From positions 1 to 64,000 of IMG/VR virus record IMGVR_UViG_3300032213_000722: 64,000 bases of DNA, one strand, 5' to 3'. Position numbers and translations under genes: made by a program. Source of the DNA: a virus. Below the pieces are notes generated by a model. It saw only the letters and a list, made by a program, of their open reading frames with translations. It was not told the origin of the DNA and did not search any database. Below, one piece after another: positions 296-58,350 of this stretch; the first letter of the stretch is position 1; the number at the start of each line of letters is the position of its first letter.

Positions 296-946
296 TTATT
301 TGGATGATTTCAATAGATTAGTTTTCCAAGGTAGCATTCTTAAATTATTCCACTCTGCAATTACTTCTGCATCTATCCCATTTTTCCATCCCCAATCTAT
401 ACTTCTTATATGGTCTAACTGATATGCACCCTCTACTCCACATCTTCCTCTCAATTCCCAATTCTCTAATGTATCTATTGGTTTCTGATATGTTAATCTC
501 CACACCTCTCTTTTATAGAACTGCTTTTTAGGATATCTTAGTTTATATTCATCGAAGTTTTGGAAACCTGCTTTGGTGGCTCTCATTTGAAGTGTGTGTT
601 CGGGCTTAATTACATCTTTGAATGTTTTGTTGTATTTGTAGGTAGAACAACTATTGCAAATTGTATTTCGTTTTTTTGATGTATTTAAAGTTCCCTCTGA
701 AATGTAACTCATTTCTTTTCCACAATTTGGGCAATTACGTTTAAATGGTTTGATTAAATCACAATCTTTTTTTCTTGGAACTACACTAATTTCACCACTT
801 TTGTATTTTTCTTTTAGTGTAGATGATGCTTGTTTGCTATAACATTTTTTACAAGGTTTATTATCATTACCAGCCCATTTAAAACTTCTTGGGTTTTTGT
901 AATTTATAACATCACCGCATTTTGGGCAATCTCTTTTATATATCAT
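296..946 (-). CDS. HNH endonuclease with two zinc-finger pairs (probable free-standing homing endonuclease)
   Basis: This 216-residue protein has two Cys4 treble-clef or ribbon-like units: C7/C10 with C32/C35, and C72/C75 with C97/C100. A C-terminal HNH-like core follows, with DHIRSIDWGWKNG (D178-H179), then WNNLRMLPWKTNLLKS carrying the late Asn residues. The frame is open up to 1051, but that upstream stretch lies in the capsid-gene terminator and would encode an odd hydrophobic leader. The ATG at 946 begins directly before the first CxxC and has a promoter-like motif 24 nt upstream. Such genes are common free-standing mobile elements in T4-like phages. It is not known to have a structural role. 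Confidence 0.75.
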   Translation of the reverse strand: MIYKRDCPKCGDVINYKNPRSFKWAGNDNKPCKKCYSKQASSTLKEKYKSGEISVVPRKKDCDLIKPFKRNCPNCGKEMSYISEGTLNTSKKRNTICNSCSTYKYNKTFKDVIKPEHTLQMRATKAGFQNFDEYKLRYPKKQFYKREVWRLTYQKPIDTLENWELRGRCGVEGAYQLDHIRSIDWGWKNGIDAEVIAEWNNLRMLPWKTNLLKSSK

Positions 947-970
947 ATCTATACTTTTAGGAGTATTTAC

Positions 971-978
971 TATAAATA
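971..978 (-). promoter_or_regulatory. Late-type promoter motif TATTTATA
   Basis: TATATTTATAG on the minus strand, 24 nt before the chosen ATG (946) of the HNH gene. Its distance matches that of the other operon-head copies and supports this start over an upstream one. Confidence 0.45.
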
Positions 979-1012
979 TATAAAACTTTACCCAAACGAT
1001 AAAAAAGAGCAT

Positions 1013-1039
1013 AAAAAAGGGGGAAATCCATTTTCCCCC
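1013..1039 (-). terminator. Rho-independent terminator of the capsid gene
   Basis: On the minus strand an 8-bp perfect stem (GGGGGAAA / TTTCCCCC, 1032-1039 with 1019-1026) with a 5-nt loop is followed by six T (1013-1018). It begins about 31 nt after the stop codon of the major capsid gene. Strong termination here would insulate the HNH gene from capsid transcription. Confidence 0.85.
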
Positions 1040-1070
1040 AATTTTATTCACTCTAAGAGTATGTTATTGA

Positions 1071-2729
1071 TTAGATATTTTGTAAATCTTTAACATAAAT
1101 CTTCCCGTAGTATTCCGGACGGACCATCTTCTTAGCGTAACGAGTCATCACGCCCCGACGAGGTGTGAAATTTTGTGGGTCGTACACTAAAGGAGTCATA
1201 ATCAAAGGAACATATGGAGCGTAAACTGCACCTGTCTCTAAGAAGTTGTTACCTCTATATCCTAATAAGATTTCGTTAGAAGTCATATAAGGGTTTTTGT
1301 AAACAGTGTAGCGATTAGCCATAGCACCTACTTGAGTTACACCAGCTGCGAAAGATGTTGCATCTTTATCAGCGTTTACTACGAATCCAGGAATAGATTC
1401 CAAGATAGTACAAACATCAGGAGAAGCAACGATGAAGTTAGCTCCACCTCTCAATGTTAATTGGTGAATCTTATTAGATACCTTATTGATTTTAGTTCCT
1501 AAAGTCTGGAACCAAGTGTTCTTTTGGTAAGCCAATGAAGAGTTACCAGTAGACCAAGCTGCTTGTCCAGTTGCACCATTGTTAAGTAATTCCTCACCAA
1601 TAGTTGCAGACCAGTATTCAGTAGTCAATGCGTTGCTCTTTAACATATCTAAGATTTCTAAGTCAATCTCTAATGAGATATAATCAGATAACATAGAAGT
1701 TAATTCAGCTTCTGCATCGATTGAGTGATATGCATTTAAGTCTTGTGCTAATTCAGGAGTCCACACTGCTTTCAACTTACGAGTCTTAGCAACGATTGCC
1801 TCTGATTTCAATTCTAAGTCGATTTCAGGAATATCCAATGCAGTTGTTGTGTTACCAGCAGCGTTTGCAGTTGAATCTTCGAAATCACCTCTATCGTAAG
1901 CTACAGGAACTTCAGAGTAAACGATAGTGTTTGAAGGACCACCAGCTGCTGCTAAAGTAGAACCAGAAACGTATAATACCGCTAATCCAGAAGTTGAGTT
2001 GTAATAGTTGTATTGGTTTAAGTTAGCGAATACACCAGCGTTTGTTACTAATGTAGAACGAACTGCATTAGAATCAAAAGTTGAAGCGATTGCTGAACCA
2101 GATACAGTTAATTTGAATACTTTACCAGCCGAAACTGATGCAGAAATTGCTCCATCATATCCAACTTCAGACCAAGTTACACCAGATGCTGAAGTGATTG
2201 TACCATTTACTTGAGTAGTAGTAATAGTTGCAGTAGCATCGTTTACTGAATAACCATAACGGCCTTCACCATATAAACCACCTGTTGCTGCATCAGTTCT
2301 ACCAAAGTTAGTAGCTGAACCAGTTGCGTTAGTACCACCGAAAAGTGATTTTCCACCGAATTGTCCTGCTGCTCCTTGTGAAGAACCATATTTGAAATCT
2401 AAGAAGAATACAAGACCAGAAGGTAAGTTCATAGGTTGTACACTAACGAATTCTTTAGAAGCAATCTCACCAAAGATTCTTCTTACTAAAGGTAAAGCTA
2501 CACCACTCCACTCTTCTGAACCAGAAGAAGTACCAGTTTGAGTTGCCTCGTCCAACAATTGCTTAGCTTGGTTCTCTAAAAGAACTGCCATAGAGTGTTG
2601 GTCTCTATCTTTCATACCTTCTAATAGACCGGTTTTTTCCCACTTAGATTTCAATTGACGTGTTTCAGCCAACATTACTGCTTGTGGGTTTTTGCCTTCC
2701 ATTAATTTGGATAAATCAAAATTTGCCAT
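1071..2729 (-). CDS. 23: Major capsid protein, T4 gp23-like
   Basis: The 552-residue protein (T4 gp23 is 521) has the hallmark VQPMNLPSGLVFFLDFKYG segment near residues 97-115, equivalent to VQPMNSPTGQVF in T4. The C-terminal part has APYVPLIMTPLVYDPQNFTPRRG and MTRYAKK, like T4 APYVPL and KTRYG. LLDE-A at residues 58-62 fits the prohead protease LxE^A site and lies where T4 gp23 is cut (after residue 65). Residues of about 120-290 form a Gly/Ser/Thr-rich beta insertion, probably a surface-exposed Ig-like domain. The gene sits directly behind the scaffold gene (26 nt apart) and in front of a strong terminator. It forms the capsid hexamers. Confidence 0.93.
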   Translation of the reverse strand: MANFDLSKLMEGKNPQAVMLAETRQLKSKWEKTGLLEGMKDRDQHSMAVLLENQAKQLLDEATQTGTSSGSEEWSGVALPLVRRIFGEIASKEFVSVQPMNLPSGLVFFLDFKYGSSQGAAGQFGGKSLFGGTNATGSATNFGRTDAATGGLYGEGRYGYSVNDATATITTTQVNGTITSASGVTWSEVGYDGAISASVSAGKVFKLTVSGSAIASTFDSNAVRSTLVTNAGVFANLNQYNYYNSTSGLAVLYVSGSTLAAAGGPSNTIVYSEVPVAYDRGDFEDSTANAAGNTTTALDIPEIDLELKSEAIVAKTRKLKAVWTPELAQDLNAYHSIDAEAELTSMLSDYISLEIDLEILDMLKSNALTTEYWSATIGEELLNNGATGQAAWSTGNSSLAYQKNTWFQTLGTKINKVSNKIHQLTLRGGANFIVASPDVCTILESIPGFVVNADKDATSFAAGVTQVGAMANRYTVYKNPYMTSNEILLGYRGNNFLETGAVYAPYVPLIMTPLVYDPQNFTPRRGVMTRYAKKMVRPEYYGKIYVKDLQNI

Positions 2730-2755: not shown

Positions 2756-3853
2756 TTATTTAATGATACCAGCTAATTGCTTAAAGCGATTTGCTAATTC
2801 ATTTGTATTTTCTGAAATAATTTGTTTTGCTGGTGCAGTAGATGCAGTTGGCTTAGATGCTAACCCTTCAGTTATGCTTTTCTTAGCTGCTACTTTTCTT
2901 TCAGTACCAGTGAATTTCATTGATTCAGATAATGTTGCGTAAACCAATTTAACTTCTCTTACGTTAGAAGTTCTGTCTAAATTCTCTACAACTTTAATTT
3001 TTTGCTCATTAGTTAAGTTATATCCTCTGAACAATTTGTTAGTGTAAAGTAATTTAGCGTTTAATAAATTTACTTCGTTGATAGTTTTTCTCAAAGATTG
3101 AATAGTTGAATATGCTTCTTTCAATTCAGATTGCATTGCTGCCATTTCTTCTTCGTTTCCTGCTTCTTCTTCTTCAGAAACTTCTTCGTCATCTCCGTAA
3201 CCCATCTCACGAAGGATTTCGTCTAAATCGATAGTTTCTTCTTCTTCTCCTTCTATCGCTGGAGCTTCCATTTCATCTTCCGCTGGAGCTTCTGCTGCTG
3301 GAGCTTCTTCTTCACCTTCGTATGCGTTCTCAACACCAGTTGGGTCTTCGTATCCTAATTCATCGGATTCTTCCATACCTAACTCATCTTCTAATTCTCT
3401 GATGATAGATTCTAAATCTAATTCATCTTCATCAGCCTCTGGTGCCATTTCTTCACCTTCTGCTGCGTACTCAGCCTCATCTTCACCTTCCATTGCCGGT
3501 GCTTCTTCGTCTTCGCCTTCCATTAAGTCATCAACTTCTTCGTGTCCTTCTAACTCATCACCAGCTGATGCCGATTGGTTAGCAATTCCACTTAAGTCAG
3601 TCTGCGCTGAGTAAGCTTTGTCTGCCGGCTCTTTGTTATCACCTGTACCAATTTCGCTAGATACATCATTCTCTTCGTTCATATCTGCTTCTTCTTCATC
3701 ACCTTCCATTTCGGCTTGTAATTTTCTAGAAAGAATAGATTGTAAACGTGGAGTAAATGCTTCTTCTAAAGCGATTTTAGCGTTGGCAATAGCAGTTTCA
3801 CGTACAGCTTTAGCGTCAGCGATTGCTTCTTTTAATAATTTTGAACTTGCCAT
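2756..3853 (-). CDS. 22: Prohead core scaffold protein, gp22-like
   Basis: This 365-residue, extremely acidic protein starts with an alanine-rich helix (residues 1-45). A long Glu/Asp-rich low-complexity middle (about 50-235) follows, then a helical C-terminus ending NELANRFKQLAGIIK. Composition and position directly upstream of the major capsid gene match the T4 order gp21-gp22-gp23. A C-terminal SITE-G and other xxE sites fit digestion by the prohead protease. The scaffold fills the prohead during assembly and is degraded before packaging. Sequence identity to T4 gp22 itself is not obvious, so the call depends on context and composition. Confidence 0.7.
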   Translation of the reverse strand: MASSKLLKEAIADAKAVRETAIANAKIALEEAFTPRLQSILSRKLQAEMEGDEEEADMNEENDVSSEIGTGDNKEPADKAYSAQTDLSGIANQSASAGDELEGHEEVDDLMEGEDEEAPAMEGEDEAEYAAEGEEMAPEADEDELDLESIIRELEDELGMEESDELGYEDPTGVENAYEGEEEAPAAEAPAEDEMEAPAIEGEEEETIDLDEILREMGYGDDEEVSEEEEAGNEEEMAAMQSELKEAYSTIQSLRKTINEVNLLNAKLLYTNKLFRGYNLTNEQKIKVVENLDRTSNVREVKLVYATLSESMKFTGTERKVAAKKSITEGLASKPTASTAPAKQIISENTNELANRFKQLAGIIK

Positions 3854-4069: not shown

Positions 4070-5884
4070 TTAATTTAATAAACCAATTGCTATATCTTTA
4101 ACTTCTCTCTCCGCACCAGCTGCATATTTCTTATTACAAATTGCAATAGTGTTACCAGATACTTTAATCATATACATAGGAATCATTGAAGTTGTGAAAT
4201 CATATTTAATTCCTGCTTTCTTCAATTCAGAACCTACATTCATAAAAGATGTTGCGTTTTTAACTACTGCTTCAATTTTATCCAAATCTGCATCGTATCT
4301 TCCTTCCGTTACTACTGATTCTTCAACAAATCCTTTACTCTTGTAATCTTTGATTCCTTTTTCCAAATCTACTTTGTTCTTAAAAATCTTTATATCATAA
4401 AAATCACTACCATCATTGTGTGTTGATGTACCATTGTGAGAACTGATACTATATTTTGAACTACCAATTGGTGGATTTACTTTAAATACTTTCTTACCTT
4501 CGTTTACTGATTCGTTTGCGTAAGTTTTTACATATGCGTTTTGTATTGAACTATTTGGTGCAGCTTTTATTGCTTTTATAAAATCAGTTTTTCCTTGTGA
4601 AGTTTTATGGGCGATTGCAAATATTTTTTCTATATTCAATTTATTATCTTCAATAAACTTTTTAACATCTTTTGTATCTATTTGTGTAAGATTTGATATA
4701 GCATTAGCGTATCTATCAGTCCATGCCCAACTTAAACTAGCTTCGTTTACTGATTCGTTTGCGTAATTTTTTACATACCATTTGAAAGAAGAATTATTAG
4801 GAGTTCCAACTAATGCCTGAACAAAACGAATTCTCTCCGGCAATTTACCTTTGGTAACGTGAGTTAATATTTCTTTTGCGTTTAAATCATTATCATCAAT
4901 AAACTTTTGAACTGCTTCTTTTCTAGTGTTAGTCATTGAAGCGATTCCCATTGCTTCATGTGATATTGTTTCGTTTACTACGGATTCGATAACAATTCCG
5001 TTTTCATCTCCTCTTTTAGCAGTTTTGATACCACCTTCGATTGAATCTAATTTATGTCTAACTTTCTTTGAACCTGTTATCTTACCTTTTTCATCACATG
5101 GTACTAATGTTGCTGAATAATCATCCATTTCAACAACTTTGTAGTATTTACCACCTTCAATTCCTTTTAATCCAGTAAATCCTTGTCCATAAATTACAGA
5201 ACCAACATATAAATTGGTTGGGTATTTTGCTTCGTTTACCGATTCGTTTTCTATAATACTATTAAACAAATCACCAGATAGGGCAATTGCCGAACCAAAT
5301 TTATGATTCCAAATACTTCTCCAAGCATCATCCAATTTTACAATACCAGATTTTGTTGGTTTAGAAATAACCATATCTACAATATTTTCAAACTTTTTAA
5401 GTTCAGAAATAAATGTTTTTATTTTACTATCAGCCTCAGGATATTTTGGATGTGGCTTATATTTGTGTTTTAAAGTTTCTTTTATAGCATTTTTTAACAC
5501 ATTACCAAAAGCCTCAACTGCTTGTTGTACATCTTTCTTTTCTCTTATAACGGATGTATGTAATGCAGCAACATTATTATTAATAGCTACAACTAATCTA
5601 ACTCCCCAATCATCTTTTGGCTCTATCTTAGCTTCATTTACCGATTCTCTCAAACTATCTCTATATGTTTGACGGATGATTTCTTTTAATTCTTTTTCCA
5701 TATTTTCTTTTTTCACATGGTTAGGTAAACCTTTGTGTTTAGTTGATGCGTAATCTTTTGCGTCTGCATCACTCATTGAATCAGCTGCTTTTTCAACTTC
5801 CGATGATGGGGCATCCATGTCTCCTTTTTGTACGGCATGAACCATTCCCATAAAACGTTGTTGAGCTTTTGATTTTGCAGGCAT
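4070..5884 (-). CDS. Head-internal polyprotein with DUF3008-like N-terminus and six protease-type sites
   Basis: The 604-residue protein starts with a DUF3008-like module (MPAKSKAQQRFMGMV ... KHKGLPNHV, residues 1-56). Six near-identical sites follow: ESVNE^A at 84/85, 218/219 and 381/382, ESVVNE^T at 305/306, ESVNE^G at 462/463 and ESVVTE^G at 527/528. They divide the chain into seven segments of about 65-134 residues. Segments 306-381 and 382-462 are homologous to each other (xKFI(D/E)DNxLN ... SSxxxxYVKxYANESVNE). The sites match the LxE^A/G pattern of T4-type gp21. The gene lies between the core-protein operon and gp22, so I infer packaged internal proteins released by cleavage. Segment functions are unknown. 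Confidence 0.7.
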   Translation of the reverse strand: MPAKSKAQQRFMGMVHAVQKGDMDAPSSEVEKAADSMSDADAKDYASTKHKGLPNHVKKENMEKELKEIIRQTYRDSLRESVNEAKIEPKDDWGVRLVVAINNNVAALHTSVIREKKDVQQAVEAFGNVLKNAIKETLKHKYKPHPKYPEADSKIKTFISELKKFENIVDMVISKPTKSGIVKLDDAWRSIWNHKFGSAIALSGDLFNSIIENESVNEAKYPTNLYVGSVIYGQGFTGLKGIEGGKYYKVVEMDDYSATLVPCDEKGKITGSKKVRHKLDSIEGGIKTAKRGDENGIVIESVVNETISHEAMGIASMTNTRKEAVQKFIDDNDLNAKEILTHVTKGKLPERIRFVQALVGTPNNSSFKWYVKNYANESVNEASLSWAWTDRYANAISNLTQIDTKDVKKFIEDNKLNIEKIFAIAHKTSQGKTDFIKAIKAAPNSSIQNAYVKTYANESVNEGKKVFKVNPPIGSSKYSISSHNGTSTHNDGSDFYDIKIFKNKVDLEKGIKDYKSKGFVEESVVTEGRYDADLDKIEAVVKNATSFMNVGSELKKAGIKYDFTTSMIPMYMIKVSGNTIAICNKKYAAGAEREVKDIAIGLLN

Positions 5885-5923: not shown

Positions 5924-7255
5924 CTATGAAAATAAGTAAAAGTAATCAGTATGTTTGTCCGATTGGATTTTCTGTCTGATTCTTTCATCTGATACACCAA
6001 ATCTTTCACCGGCATCCTTTAGTGTGTAGAATAGTTCTCCCTCACAACTTATCGTATGTATCTTATCTCTAACTTTAATATCCTTTAGAGTTCTTTCATG
6101 TGCATCGTAAGTAATAGTTGTAAGTGGTTCATCTAACTTTTTCCAATGTCTATAATGGTCAGCTTTTGATTCTAAGCGATTACGAATTTCAGTTTCACTA
6201 TATTCAATGTACTCTGCTGCTTGTACAGGTGACTCAAAGTAATACCCATCTATACAATATTTTAAGATAGGATATGTTTCCTCACCAATTACCTGCCATC
6301 CTTTGTATTTGGTTTTTGGTGATTGACATCTTCTTTCTACTTCAGATGCTACTAACTCATTTGGATTGATTGAAATTGCTGCTTCTCTAAATGATTTATA
6401 TTGTTTTCCGTTCACCACACATTTGTAAGTACCATCCCATTCAATATCTTCCGTTGCCAAATCAGGATTTCCTTTTACAAATACTAATACATTTTGATGA
6501 ACTGATGCTACCTTACGATTACGTTTGAAATATGTATCTACCACTCTTCCAGCCTGATGTTGTGAATTAAATAGTACCATATCGTTATAGAAGTGTAATC
6601 CACATTCTTCCATTGCTGAAATAGTTTTGTTTACCAATCCTCTATACTTTCCAATTTTGTAATCTCCTGTCTTTGATACTTCTCTAACTTCAGATACCAC
6701 AACTGCAAAGAATCTATTGTTCTTTAACTTTTCTGCTGATTTTTGTAATATGGAAATATATCTATCATCAAATTGTGCATCCGCCATATTGGATAAATCA
6801 TTCGCATTATCACTATATACCTCCAAATCATAGTATGGTGGACAAGTGAATACAAAATCATATGTATTCCCTTCCAATACATTTAATAATAGGTAACTAT
6901 CCCCACCCATCCATCTAGGTTTATCGGATTGCTTTCTATTTGCTTCTATTTGTGTTTGTGATATATCAATTCCATCGTATTTGAATCCCATCTCCGTTGC
7001 CACAATTCCCCTCACACTTCCACCGGCGAATGGGTCTAATACCTTACCACTTTTTGGAACAAACCATTCATACATCTTTTCACATAAGGTAGCATCAAAT
7101 ACTGAAACAGTATCTTCATCATCCCAAAACTTACTATTTGATTGAGTATCTTCCCTACCTAATTCTGATTTGATATTGTAGGTTTGTATCCACCATCGTT
7201 TACGGTCTTGCCATTCTTTGGTGCGGGTATCGAGTATTGAAAATGGTTTTATCAT
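5924..7255 (-). CDS. DNA methyltransferase (N6-adenine/N4-cytosine type) with C-terminal NUMOD1-like repeats
   Basis: Counting from the ATG at 7255 the protein has 443 residues. Motif I is LDPFAGGS (73-80) for SAM binding, followed by the acidic GIDIS, and the catalytic motif is TCPPYYD (137-143, CPPY in place of DPPY). The C-terminal third holds three repeats at about 278-322, 334-372 and 402-443, each with a Tyr/Phe-S/T-xxx-AA/AG helix-turn-helix core and W/F ending. They resemble NUMOD1/IENR1 modules of homing endonucleases. The frame is open to 7294, but that region is the terminator hairpin, so 7255 is preferred. It has its own TATATTTG promoter and interrupts the head gene block, suggesting an inserted, probably early-expressed gene. 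Confidence 0.8.
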   Translation of the reverse strand: MIKPFSILDTRTKEWQDRKRWWIQTYNIKSELGREDTQSNSKFWDDEDTVSVFDATLCEKMYEWFVPKSGKVLDPFAGGSVRGIVATEMGFKYDGIDISQTQIEANRKQSDKPRWMGGDSYLLLNVLEGNTYDFVFTCPPYYDLEVYSDNANDLSNMADAQFDDRYISILQKSAEKLKNNRFFAVVVSEVREVSKTGDYKIGKYRGLVNKTISAMEECGLHFYNDMVLFNSQHQAGRVVDTYFKRNRKVASVHQNVLVFVKGNPDLATEDIEWDGTYKCVVNGKQYKSFREAAISINPNELVASEVERRCQSPKTKYKGWQVIGEETYPILKYCIDGYYFESPVQAAEYIEYSETEIRNRLESKADHYRHWKKLDEPLTTITYDAHERTLKDIKVRDKIHTISCEGELFYTLKDAGERFGVSDERIRQKIQSDKHTDYFYLFS

Positions 7256-7263
7256 AGATAACA

Positions 7264-7271
7264 CAAATATA
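7264..7271 (-). promoter_or_regulatory. Host-type promoter box TATATTTG
   Basis: TTTGTATATTTGTGTTA precedes the methyltransferase ATG by 8 nt. TATATTTG fits the Bacteroidota -7 consensus TAnnTTTG. The same GTATATTTGT string precedes the genes starting at 24220 and 37145, all non-structural. No convincing -33 element was identified. Confidence 0.4.
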
Positions 7272-7272
7272 C

Positions 7273-7300
7273 AAAAAAAGCTTGGGATTACCAAGCTTTT
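7273..7300 (-). terminator. Rho-independent terminator closing the gp21/core operon
   Basis: On the minus strand AAAAGCTTGG (7291-7300) pairs with CCAAGCTTTT (7276-7285) around a 5-nt loop and continues into T residues to 7273. It follows the stop codon at 7324 by about 24 nt and separates head genes from the methyltransferase. Confidence 0.8.
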
Positions 7301-7323: not shown

Positions 7324-8439
7324 TTATGCAAAGTTAGGGTCTAACTCATCATCCTTACCCATATTAGCATAATATTTTTCCTCATCATCCATCATTTTAA
7401 GTAAGTTCTTTTGATACATTGTTATTTGCTTTGTTATAGCAAATATTGGTTGTGCTAATTCATGTTTCCTTTTAGGGTCAGTTTCTGAATTTAATTTTCT
7501 AGCATATTCTCCACCATATTTAGATTTTCTCTCAGCTTCTAATGCTTTTATTTTATTTTTTACTGCTTCAATTTTTAAATAAAGTTTTGGAATACCTGCT
7601 TCTTTAACAACTCCTTCAGGAACACAATTTGGAACTTCTTTACCATTCTTGTCTTTCATTCCAACTTGCTTATATCCTTTCCAACAAGGGTCATTTTCCA
7701 TTAACTTTGTTAATTTAATCATACCCTCATTTTTCATATATGGTTTATTATCAAATACCGATTGAATAGTATCTGCTTCTTTATGGAATCCATTCATTCT
7801 TAATGTAAATGCAATACCATCTGCTGCTTGAACACCATCCCAACCTGATGCTTGTGATACGTTTCTTCCATATTCATGTGCGTTATCATCACCATTCCAA
7901 TATTCCGAACTATCTACACCATTACTTCGTATATCTGCCATCTTTTCTTTATACTTAGGGTCATCCATTTTAGGATAATCCACTCTCTTAGCCCATTCAG
8001 GCTTTCCTTCAATCTTTGAAATCAATTCTCTCGCCTCATCATGAAAGTTTGCATCAGTTAAAGCCTCAACTGCTGCTTTTAACATTGTTTTTTTATATCC
8101 ATCATTACCCAATTTTTGTGGAGTAATACCATATTCTTCTGCTTTTTTCTTAGCTTCTTTGTTTACTTGAGGATTACCTTTTCTTTCTTTTTTAGGAGCT
8201 GATGTAGTATCAGCTTTAGGAGCTTCACCGCCTCTATCTTTTGCATAATCTCCACCAAACATATCACTACCAACTGCTTTTGGTGCTGATGGTTGTTCTG
8301 TATCTTTTATAGGATTGTGAGTACCAGCTTTAATCGCAGCATCTCTACTATCTTTGGTTTTGAATACGGATGTTTTACCAGTTGCTTTATTAGTTGCGGT
8401 AAATGTTTCCTCTTTAAGTAGTTGGTTTAACTTAATCAT
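7324..8439 (-). CDS. Head-internal protein, apparent in-frame fusion of two cargo units
   Basis: The 371-residue protein begins MIKLNQLLKE^E, a 10-residue leader of the same form as other head genes here and like the T4 internal-protein capsid-targeting leader. A second leader-like string, MIKLTKLMEN, occurs at residues 240-249, followed by a compact module DPCWKGYKQVGMKDKNGKE ... PNCVPEG and a cleavage-type site VVKE^A (280/281). The C-terminal part (285-371) is highly charged and helical. I infer two ancestral internal-head-protein genes joined in frame, or a polyprotein with an internal start at 7722. The gene is the last of the gp21 operon, 1 nt after its neighbour, and ends in a terminator. 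Confidence 0.6.
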   Translation of the reverse strand: MIKLNQLLKEETFTATNKATGKTSVFKTKDSRDAAIKAGTHNPIKDTEQPSAPKAVGSDMFGGDYAKDRGGEAPKADTTSAPKKERKGNPQVNKEAKKKAEEYGITPQKLGNDGYKKTMLKAAVEALTDANFHDEARELISKIEGKPEWAKRVDYPKMDDPKYKEKMADIRSNGVDSSEYWNGDDNAHEYGRNVSQASGWDGVQAADGIAFTLRMNGFHKEADTIQSVFDNKPYMKNEGMIKLTKLMENDPCWKGYKQVGMKDKNGKEVPNCVPEGVVKEAGIPKLYLKIEAVKNKIKALEAERKSKYGGEYARKLNSETDPKRKHELAQPIFAITKQITMYQKNLLKMMDDEEKYYANMGKDDELDPNFA

Positions 8440-8440
8440 T

Positions 8441-9061
8441 TTATAATTTATTAAATAATTTATCAGTATCTATATCAAATGCGTAACCTGCTCCAGCATA
8501 TCTTCTATTTGGTATTACTGAAATTCCTAACTTCTTTTCCAAACGAATTTTTATTAATGATAAAATTTCATCTTCCGCATCATTTCCTAATTGTTTTAAT
8601 ACACCCTCAATCTTTTCTCTATCCTTCATTGATTTTGGTAATAATACAATATTGTTCATTGGAGATGATACTATAAATTCAATACCATTTGCTTGTGGAA
8701 AATCAAACTTTGCATCTTTTGCTTCTGCTATTTGTTTTTTTGATTCGTTTGTTCCGTATTCGTGATAGTTTTCAGCAGCTTGTGAAATGTAGTTTCCTGC
8801 ATTTGTAATGTGGTCTTGAATCCACGCAGGTATATTCTTTTCGTTTGCACCAATTTTAGATTTTAATTCGGTAGCATGTTTAATGATTGCATCTAAAGTG
8901 TTATTTGCCATAGATACTTCATGGTCAGGTTCCTCACCCTCTTTAACTTGCGGAGCGAATGCTCTTGCATAAGGATTAGATACTACTTGCCCCAATTGTG
9001 GTTTTAATCTACCATAAGTAGAACTATCCGCAAAGTTAAACATTTCGGTTAAACGAATCAT
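8441..9061 (-). CDS. Head-internal/prohead core protein
   Basis: 206 residues. It starts MIRLTEMFNF, a variant of the MIKLxxLL leader seen in neighbouring head genes. A cleavage-type site QVKE^G lies near residue 42 and AEA near 112 (IAE^A). Between them is a helical module (SMANNTLDAIIKHATELKS ... WIQDHITNAGNYISQAAENYHEY) of a kind that recurs in phage head proteins. The C-terminal half is unidentified. It sits 1 nt from each neighbour within the gp21 operon. The role as packaged cargo or core protein is inferred. Confidence 0.55.
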   Translation of the reverse strand: MIRLTEMFNFADSSTYGRLKPQLGQVVSNPYARAFAPQVKEGEEPDHEVSMANNTLDAIIKHATELKSKIGANEKNIPAWIQDHITNAGNYISQAAENYHEYGTNESKKQIAEAKDAKFDFPQANGIEFIVSSPMNNIVLLPKSMKDREKIEGVLKQLGNDAEDEILSLIKIRLEKKLGISVIPNRRYAGAGYAFDIDTDKLFNKL

Positions 9062-9062
9062 C

Positions 9063-9821
9063 TTATCTTATTTTTGATTTCAACTTTGCAATAACAGAAT
9101 TTATAGAATCATTATCACCATCAATTGTTAATACTTTTTTATTGTTGTGATATAAATCATACCCTATACTATAAAATATACCCTTAAATCTTTTTTTAAG
9201 TTCTAAAGATAATTGCATTTGAAATGGACTTGCTAATTTTGATTTTGGCCAAATACCTTCCTTAATTGATTTTCCTAAACCCAATCTTTCTTTCATAACA
9301 TCAGGCTGAATATCTGCAATCTCATAGTAACGAGATAGAATGTGTCCCATATCTTCGTATAATGAATGTAATCTTTCATCCATTGCTTTTGCTTCCACAG
9401 CAAACTTTTGGAAACTTTTATCTAACTTATCTAATTCAGTCATATTACGTTTAACAGTCACACCATCAAACCAATCTGCTGTTTCTCTCAAAGTTAATTC
9501 TTTTGCTGCTTCAACAATTCCACCCAAAGTGTTAGCTACTTCCGTTAAATCGGATGCTCTTTGCATTTGTTCTTGGAATGTAGCATATGTAGATATGATT
9601 TCTAAAAAATGTTTTTTAACCTCATTACTTAAAGGTCTTTTATCTCCTGCTAAACTTTCTTTAAGACTAAACTTTCCGTTTACAATCTTTACTTCGTTTA
9701 AGTTAGTTTTACGAATGTCATTATATCCCTTTGATACGTTAGTAGCTTTTCTTTCAGCTTCTACCTTCAAAGTGATTTTGTTGTTATGTACATAATCGTA
9801 TATGTCAAATGGCTTGCTCAT
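9063..9821 (-). CDS. Prohead core or head-internal protein next to the protease gene
   Basis: 252 residues, predominantly helical, with KVE^A near residue 21 and NLNE^V near 43 as possible prohead protease sites. The middle (about 65-170) is a long amphipathic helical domain of the type EVKKHFLEIISTYATFQ ... RYYEIADIQ. The start codon overlaps the gp21 stop by one nucleotide (TAATG), implying translational coupling. In T4, small core proteins gp67 and gp68 also neighbour gp21. I do not recognise the family with certainty. Confidence 0.5.
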   Translation of the reverse strand: MSKPFDIYDYVHNNKITLKVEAERKATNVSKGYNDIRKTNLNEVKIVNGKFSLKESLAGDKRPLSNEVKKHFLEIISTYATFQEQMQRASDLTEVANTLGGIVEAAKELTLRETADWFDGVTVKRNMTELDKLDKSFQKFAVEAKAMDERLHSLYEDMGHILSRYYEIADIQPDVMKERLGLGKSIKEGIWPKSKLASPFQMQLSLELKKRFKGIFYSIGYDLYHNNKKVLTIDGDNDSINSVIAKLKSKIR

Positions 9822-10408
9822 TATGATATTTCAGTTATAATTTCTCTCATTAAATCTTGTGCTTTGCAGTAATCTCCGCAAACATCAGTTCCAATTTGTC
9901 TTGTTACCGATTCGTTTACAGGTACCATAAATGCACCATGTGTAGACGGATTAGAAACAAAATCCCAACCTATAAGCTCAAAATCTTCCTGAACTTCTAC
10001 TTTATTTCCTTCCATTTGTTTTGTAGAACCCATACCTCTTGATGATATACCTAATAGGATACCAGCTTTAAGTAATTCTTTAAGGATATTACCAGATGGA
10101 GTTGCAAGGATTTCAACCGTCCCACATAAATCATCTCCTTCCCAATGTATTTCTCTAACATTGTGTGATACGTTCTTTAAGTTGATTACAGTTGAATCAG
10201 GATGGTCTAATTCACCTAATGCTCTACGTTCTTTGATAAGTTGCTCATACTTTTGAGCTTCTCTCATTAATGTAGGCTTTGGATATATTCTACCATTTTG
10301 ATTCTCAGCACCAGCTCTTTGAAGAACACCTTTAACGATAGTTCTACCACCAGCATCCTCTTCTACCTTGCCTTCGAATAATTTGGTTTCTATTAAAAGA
10401 TTCTTCAT
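9821..10408 (-). CDS. 21: Prohead core protease, gp21-like
   Basis: The 195-residue protein (T4 gp21 is 212) carries the serine-protease signature of the herpesvirus/gp21 assembly-protease fold. It has NGRIYPKPTLMREAQKY, a catalytic His in LGELDHPDS (H69) and a catalytic Ser in LGISSRGMGS (S122/S123), followed by DFELIGWDFVSNPS. VNE^S at 166/167 and LFE^G at 12/13 are plausible self-cleavage sites. It matures the head by cutting the capsid protein, scaffold and internal proteins at xxE^A/G sites, which recur in the surrounding genes. Confidence 0.92.
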   Translation of the reverse strand: MKNLLIETKLFEGKVEEDAGGRTIVKGVLQRAGAENQNGRIYPKPTLMREAQKYEQLIKERRALGELDHPDSTVINLKNVSHNVREIHWEGDDLCGTVEILATPSGNILKELLKAGILLGISSRGMGSTKQMEGNKVEVQEDFELIGWDFVSNPSTHGAFMVPVNESVTRQIGTDVCGDYCKAQDLMREIITEIS

Positions 10409-10421
10409 TTTATTTTAATTC

Positions 10422-11162
10422 TTAGTTTTTAAGTAAATCATTTATTACTTTATCAAATAATCTTTGGCTATTTGTATTACGAGCTCCAGTAAATCCTCTT
10501 TCTTTTTGTAAATATGCAACAACTCCACCTCTTAATGCTCGTTCAACTTCATCGGATTGCATTACTTTTTTAACCGCTGCTTTAACATCATCGTATTCGG
10601 GAAATTCATTTCCTTCGGCATCTCTTGCTTCGTTTACTACGGATTCGGATTTTTCAACTGCATTCCATTTGATTTCTTCTTCGTTTAACTTACCAGATAC
10701 CATTGCAGACCACATTTCATCAATAATATTAGATGTGATAAAACCCTCTTTATCAAAAAATTCCTGTGCTAATTTTTTTACTTTTTCAATTTTATCACGT
10801 TTAAGTCTGTTTTCACGACTATCTGGGTCATTATTATAAGCATAAGCTACCTCACGAAATTCTGTATTAAATTCACGTTGAGTTTTTACTTTACGGCTAA
10901 ACAATGGCCCTCCACCATTTGCATATTTTTTCCAATGGTTAATATCAATTGCTTCCGTTACTACGGATTCGGATTTTTCACCTTTACCATTCCAAGCAGA
11001 ATCAATTTTATTAAAGAACTCTTTTTTCTCCTCATCACTCATAGATGGGATAGATTTACCAGCCTTATCCAATGCCTTTTGGAAGAATGCCTGATATTCA
11101 GTTTCTTCTACCATTACTTCCTTAACTAATTCTTTTAGTCTTTGTTTTGTTATACCTGCCAT
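10422..11162 (-). CDS. Head-internal polyprotein with two ESVV(T/N)EA sites
   Basis: 246 residues. The N-terminal segment (1-70) contains EYQAFFQKALDKAGKSIPS and MSDEEKKEFFNKIDSAW, a short helical module I associate with phage head proteins. Two nearly identical sites, KSESVVTE^A (70/71) and KSESVVNE^A (178/179), split the chain into three units of about 70, 108 and 68 residues. The N-terminus (MAGITKQRLKELVKEVMVEE) could be a removable leader. The gene lies immediately upstream of gp21, 13 nt away. Unit functions are unknown; capsid packaging is inferred from site type and position. Confidence 0.6.
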   Translation of the reverse strand: MAGITKQRLKELVKEVMVEETEYQAFFQKALDKAGKSIPSMSDEEKKEFFNKIDSAWNGKGEKSESVVTEAIDINHWKKYANGGGPLFSRKVKTQREFNTEFREVAYAYNNDPDSRENRLKRDKIEKVKKLAQEFFDKEGFITSNIIDEMWSAMVSGKLNEEEIKWNAVEKSESVVNEARDAEGNEFPEYDDVKAAVKKVMQSDEVERALRGGVVAYLQKERGFTGARNTNSQRLFDKVINDLLKN

Positions 11163-11163
11163 A

Positions 11164-11730
11164 TTACATCGAGTGGATTTTCTCCGCTATTTTATTTAAT
11201 CTTTCTTTGATAGTATTTAAGTTACTATATGTTCTTTTATAATAACCTGTTCTGTCCAAATTGTTTTCAGTTTTTAATCTTGAATACCAATTAACAAATT
11301 TTTCTATTTCTGATAATTGAGATTTTACACTTCTCAATCCTACTGCTATTTTCTTTTGTGGAGAAGCATCTTCTCTTTTCAATTCTAACCAACGATTTTC
11401 AACTAATTCCATTGAGGATACATTAGCCATTTCATCATCTTTATCATTTTCATCTTTCGCAGGAGTTGCAGTTGGTTTTGCTTTTTCAGGTTGTAAATCC
11501 AAAATTCCCATCTCCTCTTTCAATTTACCTTCTTCTAAATCATCCACAACAGTTCCACCAGTAACTTTAGCTAATCTATTATTTTTCTTTCCAGTTTGAC
11601 CGGGTTTAGAAAATGCGTTTGGAGTATCATAACCAGCAACTGCACCAGTTCCAGTCATTTCTTCCAATTCTTTTTCGGATTGAATTTCTCTAACCAAACC
11701 TCTGATTATTTCTCTTAATTTATTTTCCAT
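11164..11730 (-). CDS. Prohead core/scaffold-associated protein
   Basis: 188 residues, acidic and lysine-rich, with an N-terminal helix (MENKLREIIRGLVREIQSEK). A conserved-looking stretch EEMTGTGAVAGYDTPNAF at about 22-40 follows; I associate this with head-region proteins of myoviruses. The C-terminal 90 residues are a helical domain (VGLRSVKSQLSEIEKFVNWY ...). Several EE/KEE sites could serve the prohead protease. It overlaps the upstream gene by 11 nt and is 1 nt from the downstream one, so it belongs to the gp21 operon. Confidence 0.5.
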   Translation of the reverse strand: MENKLREIIRGLVREIQSEKELEEMTGTGAVAGYDTPNAFSKPGQTGKKNNRLAKVTGGTVVDDLEEGKLKEEMGILDLQPEKAKPTATPAKDENDKDDEMANVSSMELVENRWLELKREDASPQKKIAVGLRSVKSQLSEIEKFVNWYSRLKTENNLDRTGYYKRTYSNLNTIKERLNKIAEKIHSM

Positions 11731-12601
11731 TTACTTTGTTCTTTAATTCTTTAACTAATTCATAAGAAAGCATAATAGATGAAACTTGAGAATCGGAAAC
11801 AGTCTTTCCAATCTTCATTTTTTCTAATACTGAAATTGTTTCTAATAATTTGATTTTAGTTACTTTATCACAAACTTTAGTTTCGATTAATCTCAACTCT
11901 TTTGCAATTTTAGGAATTTCTACGCCAACATAATCTTTGAATTTTGTTGTGTTACTCATATTGTTAATATACTCTTTTAACAAACCTTTTTGTTTTTCAT
12001 CTAAATTAGTATATTTTTTATTAAAACTTTCAACAAGAATTTTATAAGTCAATAAACGTAAATCTTTTTCTTGTTGAGAATAGGTTTCCATTAATTTAAC
12101 GGATTCTACATTTTTAACTGCTTCTACTTTAGCAGGTCTTGCTATGATGTTTTCAATCAGGGTAATCTTTGAATTGAATATATCTTTGATATCGTAGTTT
12201 TCCGATTTTTTAGATTCAAATACTTTGTAAATTGAAGCTAATACTTTGTAGTTAGTAATCGGTGATGAAAGGAATTGCTCTATTTCAAATTTAGCACCAA
12301 TTTCTTTAATCAAACCATATTTTTCTTTAGCTAACTTTCCCTCATTTAATTTTGAGTGAGCTTGCGATACGGTATCTACAAATTTCTCTGCTCTACTTTC
12401 CGTATTATATTTTTCTTTTAAAAGTAGTTCATACAAACGCAACTCTTTATTAAGTTCCGTACCAGGAGCAAAAAACTCCTTAACTATCTTTTTAGCATTT
12501 TCCGTTTTGTCTCCGTTTAATACCTCTAATGTTATTTGTCTTACTAATAATTCAAATAACACTCCAGTATTTTTGAACTTGGAATGTTTTATTTTTTTCA
12601 T
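11720..12601 (-). CDS. Head-region protein of unknown function, first gene of the gp21 operon
   Basis: 293 residues, basic and helical throughout, starting MKKIKHSKFKNTGVLFELLVRQ, with the segment FELLVRQITLEVLNGD near residues 16-31. It follows the portal gene in map order and starts the core/protease operon, with a late-type promoter motif 40 nt upstream. Proteins of this type sit beside portal genes in many T4-like phages and may be head or core components. I cannot assign a specific T4 counterpart. Confidence 0.5.
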   Translation of the reverse strand: MKKIKHSKFKNTGVLFELLVRQITLEVLNGDKTENAKKIVKEFFAPGTELNKELRLYELLLKEKYNTESRAEKFVDTVSQAHSKLNEGKLAKEKYGLIKEIGAKFEIEQFLSSPITNYKVLASIYKVFESKKSENYDIKDIFNSKITLIENIIARPAKVEAVKNVESVKLMETYSQQEKDLRLLTYKILVESFNKKYTNLDEKQKGLLKEYINNMSNTTKFKDYVGVEIPKIAKELRLIETKVCDKVTKIKLLETISVLEKMKIGKTVSDSQVSSIMLSYELVKELKNKVNGK

Positions 12602-14443: not shown

Positions 14444-14881
14444 TTACCATTTTCGGCAACTCCAATAGTTTGCCTTTGTTCTTGGACCGGGATTATCACA
14501 ATTCATTCTTGCTCTAAATGATTTTCTTCTTGCTGGATTGTCTTTTTTAATAACCATTCCTTTCTGTCCAAAATTCACCTTAATCACCTTACCTGTTTTT
14601 GGGTTTTTGACGTAGACCTTAAATTTCTTTACATCGCCTTGCATCGGTTTACCCAACTTTACTTCTCTTCCCTGATATTCAGCTTCAAATACACAATTAC
14701 AATTCGCCTCATCCAATTCGTTTGAGTACCCTTTTAAGAATGTAATAAAATCATCCATATCTTCTTGCTCAACATCCAATTCATCATAATCATCAATTGG
14801 ATTATCTTGCGGAGTATCACCCATAGCATATGCTTGGTCAATATACTCATCTTCGTTCAGTAAAGATTTTAACTTAATCAT
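14444..14881 (-). CDS. Small head-internal protein with cleavable leader
   Basis: 145 residues beginning MIKLKSLLNE^D, a 10-residue leader ending in Glu, like T4 internal-protein leaders removed by gp21. An acidic spacer (about 11-58) ends in ELDE^A. The C-terminal basic module (about 70-145) reads GKPMQGDVKKFKVYVKNP ... KVNFG ... RRKSFRARMNCDNPGPRTKANYWSCRKW. This cysteine-containing, Arg/Lys-rich module is one I recall from many phage head-region proteins and could bind DNA. It lies between portal and terminase. Packaging in the capsid is inferred. Confidence 0.6.
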   Translation of the reverse strand: MIKLKSLLNEDEYIDQAYAMGDTPQDNPIDDYDELDVEQEDMDDFITFLKGYSNELDEANCNCVFEAEYQGREVKLGKPMQGDVKKFKVYVKNPKTGKVIKVNFGQKGMVIKKDNPARRKSFRARMNCDNPGPRTKANYWSCRKW

Positions 14882-17268: not shown

Positions 17269-20200
17269 TTATTCGTAAAAAAGACCTAATATCTGATTAA
17301 GTGGAGCGAATGCTCCTGTTAATTTGTAAGTGTTTCCGTTATATACAAATACGATACCTTCGTTTGGTACTATCTTTTCAAACCCACCCAAAGCCTGTAA
17401 TCTTTGTAGTTCCAATTTAAGTTTATCCAACTTCTTAGGGTCTCCCAACTTTCTAACATCATCAACCGTCTTATGCAATCTAGCTACCATTTGTTTAGTT
17501 GCTTCCGTTGGATTTGCAGTAAGTACGGATTCCATAAATGAAAGAACATCTGCCCCAACTCCTAAGAATATTTCTTCAAATTTCATTAGGTTATCTTTTG
17601 CTATTTTAGCTTGGTCTTTCTTTTCGGTATTGTCTGCCCAACTTCTTAACTTAGGGTCTTGTATTGTTGCTATTCTAAATCCTTTATCTCCAAATGCCCA
17701 TCTCTTAACTAAACCAATCTTTTCTTGTGCATCTAAACCTTTTGCGTTTTTATCCACAAAGTTACTCCACCAAGCTTGATGATAATCAGCTACCCCATCG
17801 GAATCAGATAACCCAAACTCACTTTGTAGTTTAGATATCATACTCATATACTTTGATTGTAGTTTTGTTAAATCCTCACTCTTTGGTAATTTTTGCATTG
17901 GAGGTCCTTGTATTGTGTATTTGGATTGAACACTTGCATTTATCTGCTTAATCATACCAGCTAATATTCTTGCTGATGTTTGGTTCTCACCAGTTATGTT
18001 ACCATCAATATCATAATCAAATGTTCCGTGAAATACTAATAGCGGTTGGTTGTATGGAATTACGTTTACCGATGTTGGGTATATTACTTCCAAATTCATA
18101 AACGAACTACCATCATTGAATACCTTTTTTCTTTGTGGTTCGGATAATGAGCCAATTGCTTTTGATAAATCTTTCATAGCAAAGTTGTAAGCATCGGTTA
18201 ATCCACCTCTACCACCAAACTTATCTGCTACCTGTCCTATTGTCATAGCACCCTCACCTTTATTCTTTAGATGCGATTTGTTACGAGCTGCAACTAATCT
18301 TCCGTTTACCCAACTGATTGCCAATGCCTGTCCATCTGTCTTTTCTCTTGCTACATCCAAATCTCCAGTAAGTGCCTTCTTAACAATGTTCTTTAGGTCA
18401 GAGAACGTAAGGTTCATTTCAATATCAAACGGATGATGCATGTGTCCATAAGCTCCACCTTCGTTTAGTATTTGTTCCGTTACATAGACGGGTGTTGAAG
18501 ATTTGAAATCATCTTTTCTCATTATGGTTTTAGCAATCAATTTGTTTGCTACTGCCATAAACGGAATGTTAATGTTTGTTCTCTTATCTTTAACAACAAA
18601 CTCCTTATATTGTTTTATAAAATCTAAAAATTTCTTTTTATTTTTTGCTAATCTCTTAAAGAAACCAGTTAGTTCTGCTGGGGATATTTGTTTACCATTA
18701 CGAGGGTCATTTAATCTTTGAAAGAAATGGTCACTCTCTCTTCCCAACTCAATATCTTCAGGTGATAATTGTGCATCTGCGTATTTTTCAATCTGGTCTA
18801 AATCCGATTTAGCCATTTCTGCCATTTCCAATAAATCATTTGGCATTGGTAAATCTTGCTTTAATATACGATTGTATTTATCAGTTTTACCATCACCATG
18901 TAAATGTAATGGTAATTCTTGGTCTACTGCTTTTTTCTTTTCTCTTTCAGATGGTATTTCATCAAAGAAAGACCAACCATCTAAATTATCTAAATAATAT
19001 CCAGCATCATCATAATCATCCCAATCGGAATTCCAGTTAGTACCAGTAGTACCACCCATATCATTATCAAATGAATTGTTGCCACTATATTCTAAAATTG
19101 TATCTTCATCAATCTCATCAACCTCCTCATACCCACTCATTCCTTTGTTCTTCAACTTTTTACTTACTTTAGCAACATCATCTGCTTTCGGTGCACCATT
19201 GATAAATCCACCCGGCAGAGATAAACCTATACCAGCTCCCCCACCCAATCCCATTTCATCCAATGCAGTTATATAATCTTCTACAATTTCATTTAAATCC
19301 TCTTCAGATATTAATGATAAGTTTGTATCCAATTCAGTATCTTCCCAAAATCTTTTTGGTTTTTTAATTTTTTTCTTTGGTTTTACTTCTTTCCAATCTT
19401 CAACTTTATGTGGGTCTTTAGCAGGGTCCAAATCACTCGTATCTATATTGGTTACTTTATAGTAAACTTTTCTAAATGTTGAATCGTTATCTCTATTTTT
19501 ACCTTTACCTCTAATCCAATCACCCTGTGGTACATGTAATTGTTTATATCCACCTTGCTTAAACCAAGGTTCTGGTTTTGCTTTATTTATCAATCTTTTT
19601 TGTCCATCCGCAACATATCCAGTTTCAGGCTCACCTGCTTCAGCTGAGTATCCGCCTAATGATGATTCATTAAATAGATTTGATTTTGGTGGTATTCTAA
19701 ATGTGGTTGCTTTCTTACCATTGATAGTTGGCATACCATGCTCATCTTTATCAATATTTTTTACAACCACTCTTTTATTCTTAAACTTACCCATTAATAA
19801 AGTATCACCTACATTTACATCTAAGTTAATATCTTCGGAAAGTTTTCTTAATTTTAATGTAATAAATTTGAAAACAGTTGCATCAAACTTTGGATATGCT
19901 TTTAAGAACCCCTCTTTCTTTTCTTCTTCAGTTCCCTTACCTAACCAATTACGAACATCAGTACCACTAATAGGATTTGATTGTGATGGTGAAGCGTAAA
20001 CGTATCCTTTATCCAAATATCCCATCTCCACCTTACCTTTATATGGAGTAAAATAGTTTCCACCTAAACGTTGCTCATCCTTCTCACCAACTACAACTAT
20101 TAAACCAGTCTTAGCTGCATCGTATGAACTTACAATTTCCGTTGGTTGGTATGGGTTTTTAACCTGAACTATTTTGTTTGATGGAATACCAAACATTTTA

Positions 20201-20433
20201 GTCATTATAGTTTTTTTCTCTCTGAAATCAAATGGAGATTTTTGGCTATCGGTTTTGTTAGATGTTGCTATATAAACATCATTCTTTCCGAATTTTGATA
20301 CAAGTTGTTTGTATGTGGCGAAATGCCCTTTATGAAACGGTTGAAATCTGCCGGAATAGACAACTATTACGTTTTCCATTTCGACAGATTCTCCTAATAT
20401 GCTTTCTACTAAAAAGTTAGATAATTCACTCAT
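17269..20433 (-). CDS. Large bifunctional protein: NMN/cytidylyl-type adenylyltransferase fused to a KxDG ligase-like nucleotidyltransferase
   Basis: 1054 residues. Residues of about 21-190 form a HIGH-superfamily nucleotidyltransferase: GRFQPFHKGH (28-37), VGEKDEQRLGG (115-125) and ISGTDVR (155-161), as in NMNAT/NadR-type adenylyltransferases. A charged linker (about 200-640) follows. The C-terminal domain has the covalent nucleotidyltransferase motifs of DNA/RNA ligases: REKTDGQAL (motif I, Lys698), MNLEVIYP (779-786), LLVFHGTFD (798-806), EGIVF (1025-1029, motif IV) and YKLTG (1036-1040, motif V). ILNE^G at 657/658 is a possible prohead protease site separating the domains. The N-terminus MSELSNFLVESILGESVE could be a packaging leader. 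Related large proteins occur in other T4-like phages, but the activity is, to my knowledge, undefined. Confidence 0.75.
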   Translation of the reverse strand: MSELSNFLVESILGESVEMENVIVVYSGRFQPFHKGHFATYKQLVSKFGKNDVYIATSNKTDSQKSPFDFREKKTIMTKMFGIPSNKIVQVKNPYQPTEIVSSYDAAKTGLIVVVGEKDEQRLGGNYFTPYKGKVEMGYLDKGYVYASPSQSNPISGTDVRNWLGKGTEEEKKEGFLKAYPKFDATVFKFITLKLRKLSEDINLDVNVGDTLLMGKFKNKRVVVKNIDKDEHGMPTINGKKATTFRIPPKSNLFNESSLGGYSAEAGEPETGYVADGQKRLINKAKPEPWFKQGGYKQLHVPQGDWIRGKGKNRDNDSTFRKVYYKVTNIDTSDLDPAKDPHKVEDWKEVKPKKKIKKPKRFWEDTELDTNLSLISEEDLNEIVEDYITALDEMGLGGGAGIGLSLPGGFINGAPKADDVAKVSKKLKNKGMSGYEEVDEIDEDTILEYSGNNSFDNDMGGTTGTNWNSDWDDYDDAGYYLDNLDGWSFFDEIPSEREKKKAVDQELPLHLHGDGKTDKYNRILKQDLPMPNDLLEMAEMAKSDLDQIEKYADAQLSPEDIELGRESDHFFQRLNDPRNGKQISPAELTGFFKRLAKNKKKFLDFIKQYKEFVVKDKRTNINIPFMAVANKLIAKTIMRKDDFKSSTPVYVTEQILNEGGAYGHMHHPFDIEMNLTFSDLKNIVKKALTGDLDVAREKTDGQALAISWVNGRLVAARNKSHLKNKGEGAMTIGQVADKFGGRGGLTDAYNFAMKDLSKAIGSLSEPQRKKVFNDGSSFMNLEVIYPTSVNVIPYNQPLLVFHGTFDYDIDGNITGENQTSARILAGMIKQINASVQSKYTIQGPPMQKLPKSEDLTKLQSKYMSMISKLQSEFGLSDSDGVADYHQAWWSNFVDKNAKGLDAQEKIGLVKRWAFGDKGFRIATIQDPKLRSWADNTEKKDQAKIAKDNLMKFEEIFLGVGADVLSFMESVLTANPTEATKQMVARLHKTVDDVRKLGDPKKLDKLKLELQRLQALGGFEKIVPNEGIVFVYNGNTYKLTGAFAPLNQILGLFYE

Positions 20434-58209: not shown

Positions 58210-58350
58210 ATGATAAATTTATTAATTACAATAATTTTAATTTGTGGTTCTTTGGGAGCTACAATTTCTAAAACAACTACTCATTATGGTGTTAGAAAAC
58301 AAAGACAACATACTGAACCTTTGAAAATAGATAAAGAAGTTCTTTCTTAA
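58210..58350 (+). CDS. Small single-membrane-segment protein, plus strand (tentative)
   Basis: 46 residues: MINLLITIILICGSLGATIS forms a membrane segment or signal-like start, then a charged tail ending KIDKEVLS. A-rich leader (CAAAAAAATG) like real starts in this window. It converges on the outer-membrane-protein gene and overlaps its stop by 4 nt. Together with the 32910 gene it would be the only other plus-strand gene. Chance is not excluded for an ORF of this length. Confidence 0.35.
   Translation: MINLLITIILICGSLGATISKTTTHYGVRKQRQHTEPLKIDKEVLS

Follow-up and report, generated by a model that had tools for sequence, protein, structure and literature searches.

A predicted multi-cargo precursor of T4-type internal head proteins in an uncultivated phage, with modules shuffled at its putative cleavage sites

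The internal proteins of bacteriophage T4 are injected inhibitors of restriction enzymes, each of which is encoded by a gene of its own. They are basic proteins of about 8-20 kDa (PMC9026906), and the mature form of one of them, IPI*, has 76 residues (PMC3012670). The ten-residue capsid-targeting sequence (CTS) of T4 IPIII serves targeting through residues 4 and 7 and processing through residues 8 and 10, and the T4 prohead protease, gp21, cuts after (L/I)-x-E (PMC9026906). Internal proteins of this kind, core proteins that are cut several times, and the ejection proteins of SPN3US with their multiply cut propeptides are already known. For a single chain that is cut by a prohead protease into several mature cargo proteins, with its units shuffled at the cleavage sites, we found no precedent in the open-access literature, a search that leaves most subscription papers outside.

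Here, we describe a computational analysis of a 604-residue protein encoded in the head block of an uncultivated phage. The window, that is, the whole stretch of 64,000 nucleotides that was analysed, is part of a 67,084-bp IMG/VR virus record (IMGVR_UViG_3300032213_000722). By capsid protein, the closest record overall is uncultured and metagenomic, the closest cultured relatives are Microcystis phage Mel-JY01 (51.8% identity) and Flavobacterium phage immuto (50.5%), and Rhodothermus phage RM378, a member of the Far-T4 group (PMC4360716), follows this cultured pair at 39%. We propose, with a probability of roughly 0.7, that the 604-residue protein is a precursor from which the phage's own S77 protease cuts several T4-type internal head proteins as cargo.

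A first-pass annotation of this DNA had claimed that six nearly identical ESV(V)[NT]E sites divide the protein into seven small units, two of them homologous to each other. The sites are real; they end at residues 84, 218, 305, 381, 462 and 527, and 20,000 composition-preserving shuffles of the protein gave a mean of 0.009 such sites and a maximum of 2. The neo-N-termini that had been predicted, at residues 85, 219, 306, 382, 463 and 528, agree with these site ends, and the resulting units, U1 to U7 (Table 1), are 84, 134, 87, 76, 81, 65 and 77 residues long. The homologous pair is U4 and U5, which share 43% identity over 74 columns (BLASTP E 2e-14 in a single comparison). The gene is under purifying selection, as U1-U4 differ from their counterparts in a related locus (L002) by 18 synonymous and 6 non-synonymous codon differences, where random change would be expected to give a ratio of about 1:3.9.

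Table 1. Features of the polyprotein gene and of the head block, in window positions. Arrows mark predicted cuts.
Feature	Position	Strand	Remarks
Putative head-cargo polyprotein gene, 604 aa	4070..5884	-	stop codon 4070-4072; reading direction 5884 -> 4070
U1, residues 1-84	5633..5884	-	DUF3008 domain (PF11450) and amphipathic helix ending ESVNE
Predicted cleavage site 1, ESVNE↓A	5633..5647	-	GAATCGGTAAATGAA
U2, residues 85-218	5231..5632	-	15.1 kDa, pI 9.1
Predicted cleavage site 2, ESVNE↓A	5231..5245	-	GAATCGGTAAACGAA
U3, residues 219-305	4970..5230	-	9.4 kDa; lone relative after leader MIKLNDLLSE↓A in L021
Predicted cleavage site 3, ESVVNE↓T	4970..4987	-	
U4, residues 306-381	4742..4969	-	8.6 kDa; widespread module
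Predicted cleavage site 4, ESVNE↓A	4742..4756	-	
U5, residues 382-462	4499..4741	-	homologous to U4
Predicted cleavage site 5, ESVNE↓G	4499..4513	-	
U6, residues 463-527	4304..4498	-	beta-beta-beta-alpha model, pLDDT 82
Predicted cleavage site 6, ESVVTE↓G	4304..4321	-	
U7, residues 528-604	4073..4303	-	compact alpha-alpha-beta model, pLDDT 91.6, pTM 0.80
Major capsid protein	1071..2729	-	LLDE↓A at residue 61
Probable scaffold, gp22-like by position	2756..3853	-	very acidic, pI 4.1
Further presumed head cargo	7324..8439	-	CTS-like leader MIKLNQLLKE; internal VVKE↓A
gp21-type prohead protease (Peptidase_S77), presumed processing enzyme	9821..10408	-	Pfam E 8.3e-26; PHROG head maturation protease E 3.7e-50
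Second carrier polyprotein, 246 aa	10422..11162	-	two strict sites; middle module AIDINHWKK...
Further presumed head cargo	14444..14881	-	CTS-like leader MIKLKSLLNE
Cytidyltransferase/NMNAT-like protein, 1054 aa	17269..20433	-	CTS-like leader MSELSNFLVE↓S

The gene had also been placed within the head block, and this placement holds; it lies on the minus strand, which the first-pass annotation had not stated, at about 4 kb from the protease gene. The order of the block is terminase, 14444-14881, portal, 11720-12601, 11164-11730, 10422-11162, S77 protease, 9063-9821, 8441-9061, 7324-8439, a methyltransferase-like ORF, the polyprotein, the probable scaffold, and the capsid protein. Strict sites are confined to it: eight occur in the 18 ORFs of the 20-kb head block (six in the 604-residue protein and two, absent from the first-pass annotation, in 10422-11162) and none in the 29 other ORFs of the window, and a looser motif, [VILMF]-x-E↓[AGSTV], occurs within the block at about double its density elsewhere (10.5 versus 5.6 per 1000 residues). 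The protease carries candidate sites of its own, LIE↓T close to its start and VNE↓S close to its end. The LDE↓A that had been noted at the T4-equivalent position of the capsid protein is likewise present, and Glu-Ala is kept there in the two closest cultured relatives, as VSE↓A and ISE↓A. Two properties expected of a gp21/Peptidase_S77 substrate are therefore met, namely the form of the six sites and an S77 protease encoded by the phage.

Several other ORFs of the window deserve mention in their own right. The ORF adjoining the polyprotein gene inside the head block (5924-7294, minus strand) is DNA methyltransferase-like and that directly downstream of the capsid gene (296-1051, minus strand) is HNH-endonuclease-like, possibly a homing endonuclease, both from a reading of the sequence only. 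The protein encoded at 58347-59981 (minus strand) has long Ala/Ser runs and Lys/Ser/Glu repeats. The C-terminal module of 14444-14881 (minus strand; EYQGREVKLGKPMQGDVKKFKVYVKNP...) also ends longer multi-unit proteins in many relatives (e.g. L099, L117). Immuto and Mel-JY01 encode enzymes similar to 17269-20433 close to their terminase genes, and such enzymes occur in virions of cyanophage S-SCSM1 (PMC9602691).

In relatives as well, the residues preceding each unit follow a protease-like rule. Homologues were aligned with queries beginning at P1', so that the P1 residue lay outside the alignment. Among the matches listed, Glu stood exactly at P1 in 138 of 152 distinct unit-start contexts and within four residues of it in 151, the single exception arising where U5, which has a longer N-terminus, was aligned as a homologue of U4; at most positions near P1 the frequency of Glu is 0-8%. 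P3 was V, I, L, M or F in 134 of the 138 exact contexts and P1' was G, A, S, T or V in 133, a rule that fits the (L/I)-x-E specificity of T4 gp21. In an earlier tally restricted to contexts without the ES[VI] form, Glu was exactly at P1 in 54 of 65. Since these contexts share ancestry, the counts do not represent independent events. They nevertheless bear out the first-pass annotation's view that the sites match gp21-type specificity, and the outcome it had named as a refutation, a lack of conservation in related phages, did not materialize, the sites being kept at unit boundaries in dozens of relatives. A test that does not presuppose the units gave a weaker result: BLAST breakpoints lay within 5 residues of a strict site for 36% of 5' and 44% of 3' ends, compared to 15% for random positions, and this enrichment of only 2.5-3-fold was counted against our explanation.

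IMG/VR was scanned first with the complete protein and then unit by unit, which retrieved, in turn, 29, 18, at least 80, 35, 7 and at least 80 loci, and the viral metagenome contigs yielded at least 75 non-redundant multi-site proteins. A portal, protease, scaffold, capsid or terminase gene is present in the same locus and on the same strand for 57 of 66 distinct multi-site ORFs. The single-unit scans show the units arranged differently, built into other carrier proteins, or standing alone. U3, for instance, directly follows the U1 helix in L007 and is found in other carriers in L008, L010, L011 and L017, U7 is attached to relatives of the 10422-11162 protein, and the standalone homologues that separate unit searches had been expected to reveal were found, among them the U3 relative of L021. 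Judged by these comparisons, the units are real modules. The most direct evidence for shuffling comes from L002, where U1-U4 are 97-99% identical to the window at the DNA level and the place of U5 is taken by the middle module of the window's 10422-11162 protein. From the site onward, L002 and 10422-11162 share 240 identical nucleotides, and identity is lost within about 15 nucleotides upstream. The second carrier gene of L002 (2934-3137), like that of L003 (3054-3257), encodes only 68 residues and ends ...GEKSESVK-stop, at the site. A module has moved between carrier genes, and the switch occurred at the site. As the same site flanks every unit, exchange, duplication or transfer to another carrier can leave the neighbouring units unharmed. 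The movement of units between at least two carrier genes had escaped the first-pass annotation, as had the leaders and the immuto protein described below.

Relatives of two units are also made behind leaders that resemble the T4 CTS, the arrangement by which T4 produces its own internal proteins. In addition to the U3 relative of L021, U4 relatives come first in the protein after such a leader (MIKLKDILKE↓T, MISLKNILNE↓T, MNLKKLITE↓S) in L054, L055, L058, L063, L068 and L077. These leaders of 9-10 residues match the T4 CTS, with a hydrophobic residue at each of positions 4 and 7, followed by [LI]-x-E at 8-10. The pattern M-x-x-L-x-x-[LI]-[LIV]-x-E begins 130 of the 2,111 ORFs in the loci, against 8.9 expected from scrambled N-termini, and a slightly stricter pattern gave 82 distinct leaders. 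The NMNAT of S-SCSM1, which was detected in virions by mass spectrometry (PMC9602691), begins MKSFLQFLKE↓A. The 604-residue protein itself has no N-terminal CTS-like leader and begins with DUF3008; we infer that the helix ending U1 (MEKELKEIIRQTYRDSLRESVNE) does the work of the leader, and carriers in relatives show similar helices (e.g. MKEQLRKIVREI and MKITREQLRNIVGEVLQEE).

U1 meets the DUF3008 family over residues 3-57 (26.8 bits; gathering cut-off 24), for which we found no paper in the open-access literature. Its homologue in cyanophage S-SCSM1, a protein of 69 residues with 70% identity, is annotated as a virion protein (virion proteomics in PMC9602691) and is the only unit homologue with virion evidence. 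Pfam and PHROGs scans of the 604-residue chain placed only DUF3008 above threshold, the PHROGs matches of U2-U7 being at chance level, and revealed no zincin, other peptidase or known enzymatic domain; as no known family was matched, no function is supported for U2-U7. These six units are small and basic (7.2-15.1 kDa, pI 8.0-9.1; U1, pI 6.8) and in this respect resemble T4 internal protein cargo. AlphaFold2 modelled U7 as a single compact domain and U6 as a compact domain with a pLDDT of 82.3, in which only the last three residues, the VTE that ends the ESVVTE site, fall below 50. Profile searches against solved structures with U4, U6 and U7 returned nothing convincing, Foldseek matched neither the U6 nor the U7 model to anything at an E of 0.001 or below, and a scan with a U7 profile found no relatives in bacterial or archaeal genomes. 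Further structural comparison paired the U6 model with a dynamin PH domain (Z 6.9) and the U7 model with a terminal uridylyl-transferase (Z 5.1) and with RelE/HigB/YoeB-type toxins (Z 4.2-4.7 over 58-63 residues, below the tool's reliable level). With Z scores that are middling at best, none of these resemblances was taken as evidence of function.

These properties bear on a different role for the protein, that of a scaffold-type prohead core protein that is fragmented so that its pieces can leave the head before DNA packaging, in which case the units would not be cargo. T4 gp22, gp67 and gp68 are cut by gp21 into multiple fragments that are mostly removed (PMC9026906), and the gene studied here adjoins the scaffold gene, between the portal and capsid genes. 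The units, however, are diverse and shuffled and have compact predicted folds (U6 and U7), the pI of 8.0-9.1 of U2-U7 is far from the acidic composition of a scaffold (4.1 for that of this phage), and U3 and U4 have relatives that are produced singly behind a leader like that of T4 internal proteins. We regard a core role as unlikely.

Codon use at the sites raises a second alternative. In 124 ESVNE contexts Val is encoded by GTA in 98% of cases and Asn by AAC in 84%, compared to 51% and 38% elsewhere in the same genes, whereas the Ser codon varies and is nearly always TCA, TCG or TCC. Pairwise codon identity at the site versus elsewhere is accordingly 0.99 versus 0.62 for Val and 0.48 versus 0.58 for Ser. 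This unusual uniformity means that common DNA, rather than selection by a protease, may account for some of the conservation; the uniformity could stem from recent copying of sites, from recombination through them or from codon selection, which cannot be separated. The chain might, then, never be cut, with ESVNE serving as a flexible linker and as a patch of DNA homology that joins domains and favours recombination of modules, as is indeed seen at the sites. The free variation of the Ser codon speaks against this, as do the P1 Glu and hydrophobic P3 that are kept where the linker is not ESVNE, the same rule following N-terminal leaders, where no linker is needed, and the protease, of a class with this specificity, encoded in the same block. 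An uncut chain is for these reasons improbable, and the simpler notion of a mere repeated DNA element loses ground too, given that the Ser codon varies and that the P1 Glu persists in non-ESVNE contexts. A synthesis remains possible, although we would not bet on it: the head-block genes may form a recombinational cargo array, in which one DNA cassette (GAATCNGTAAAYGAA) provides both the exchange joint and the codons of the protease site, such that any module, once it lay between two joints, would need no signal of its own for packaging, release and injection. If true, this would constitute a polyprotein strategy by which a tailed DNA phage delivers changeable sets of small effectors.

That the chain is packaged and ejected whole, as is thought for polyvalent proteins, and is cut only after injection or by a host protease is very hard to sustain, for although the N4 virion RNA polymerase is a phage effector packaged unprocessed (PMC5512222), the sites fit the class of prohead protease encoded alongside, by a rule common to the capsid maturation site, and the scans described above found no zincin or other peptidase domain in the chain.

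Our preferred reading, a precursor of several internal head proteins, supports the first-pass annotation's inference of small cargo proteins made as one chain. It starts from the sites, the modules and their shuffling at the sites, the protease gene, and the leader-bearing versions of two units, all of which are observed. The chain would enter the prohead core, most likely by way of the amphipathic helix that ends the DUF3008 unit. A gp21-type serine protease would cut it after Glu at the six [VI]-x-E↓[A/G/T] sites, releasing about seven units of 7-15 kDa, of which U2-U7 are mildly to clearly basic, and the units would stay with the DNA and be ejected into the host like T4 internal proteins. 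Packaging in the core, gp21-type cutting, retention and ejection are inferred from the T4 family. We rate cutting by the prohead protease as very likely and the presence of the cut units in virions as likely, although neither has direct evidence from this phage or its close kin and we found no proteomics on this uncultivated group; injection followed by action on the host we favour only slightly. Within the host the units would probably act on defences or in take-over, and a counter-defence function is a guess by analogy with T4 IPI, Ip2 and Ip3 (PMC12373910).

Several described systems resemble the locus in part. Like the head ejection proteins of SPN3US/phiKZ-type phages, the protein would be cut after Glu by an S77-type enzyme, there sometimes at several places, but 13 of 14 mapped cuts in that system remove N-terminal propeptides from single proteins, and release of several mature proteins from one chain was not reported (PMC10052503). 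Polyvalent proteins (Iyer et al. 2017) also unite numerous modules in a single chain that is delivered together with the phage DNA, and processing was proposed for them; theirs are enzymatic domains, often with a zincin peptidase of their own, whereas none was found here and a separate prohead protease is presumed. With T4 gp22, gp67 and gp68 the protein shares its nature as a head protein, its gene block and several prohead-protease cuts, here predicted, but the T4 fragments are mostly discarded and the modules described here are folded, basic and shuffled. A further likeness is to T4 IPI, IPII and IPIII, which are small and basic, are cut at [LI]-x-E↓A, and are variable cargo sharing only a targeting or processing signal (PMC9026906, PMC12373910). 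Each of these has its own gene and its own leader, whereas up to seven units share one chain here, with sites between units and no N-terminal leader.

The predicted cut sites and the exchanged pieces suggest a modular payload, although cutting has not been shown experimentally. A polyprotein form would explain how many small injected proteins are carried and how their set is changed quickly, and the predicted sites would serve as a handle in the search for unknown phage effectors. A similar protein is encoded by the cultured Flavobacterium phage vB_FspM_immuto: immuto26A_192 (841 aa), whose gene lies close to those of the terminase and portal, is a multi-unit protein that carries at least two sites of this kind (NESVNE↓G and KESLNE↓D) and contains a module related to one in 8441-9061 of the window (32% identity). 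It differs in that U1-U7 are unmatched in the stretch of that genome examined, and its annotation does not call it a polyprotein. The existence of such a protein in a cultured phage makes the idea directly testable.
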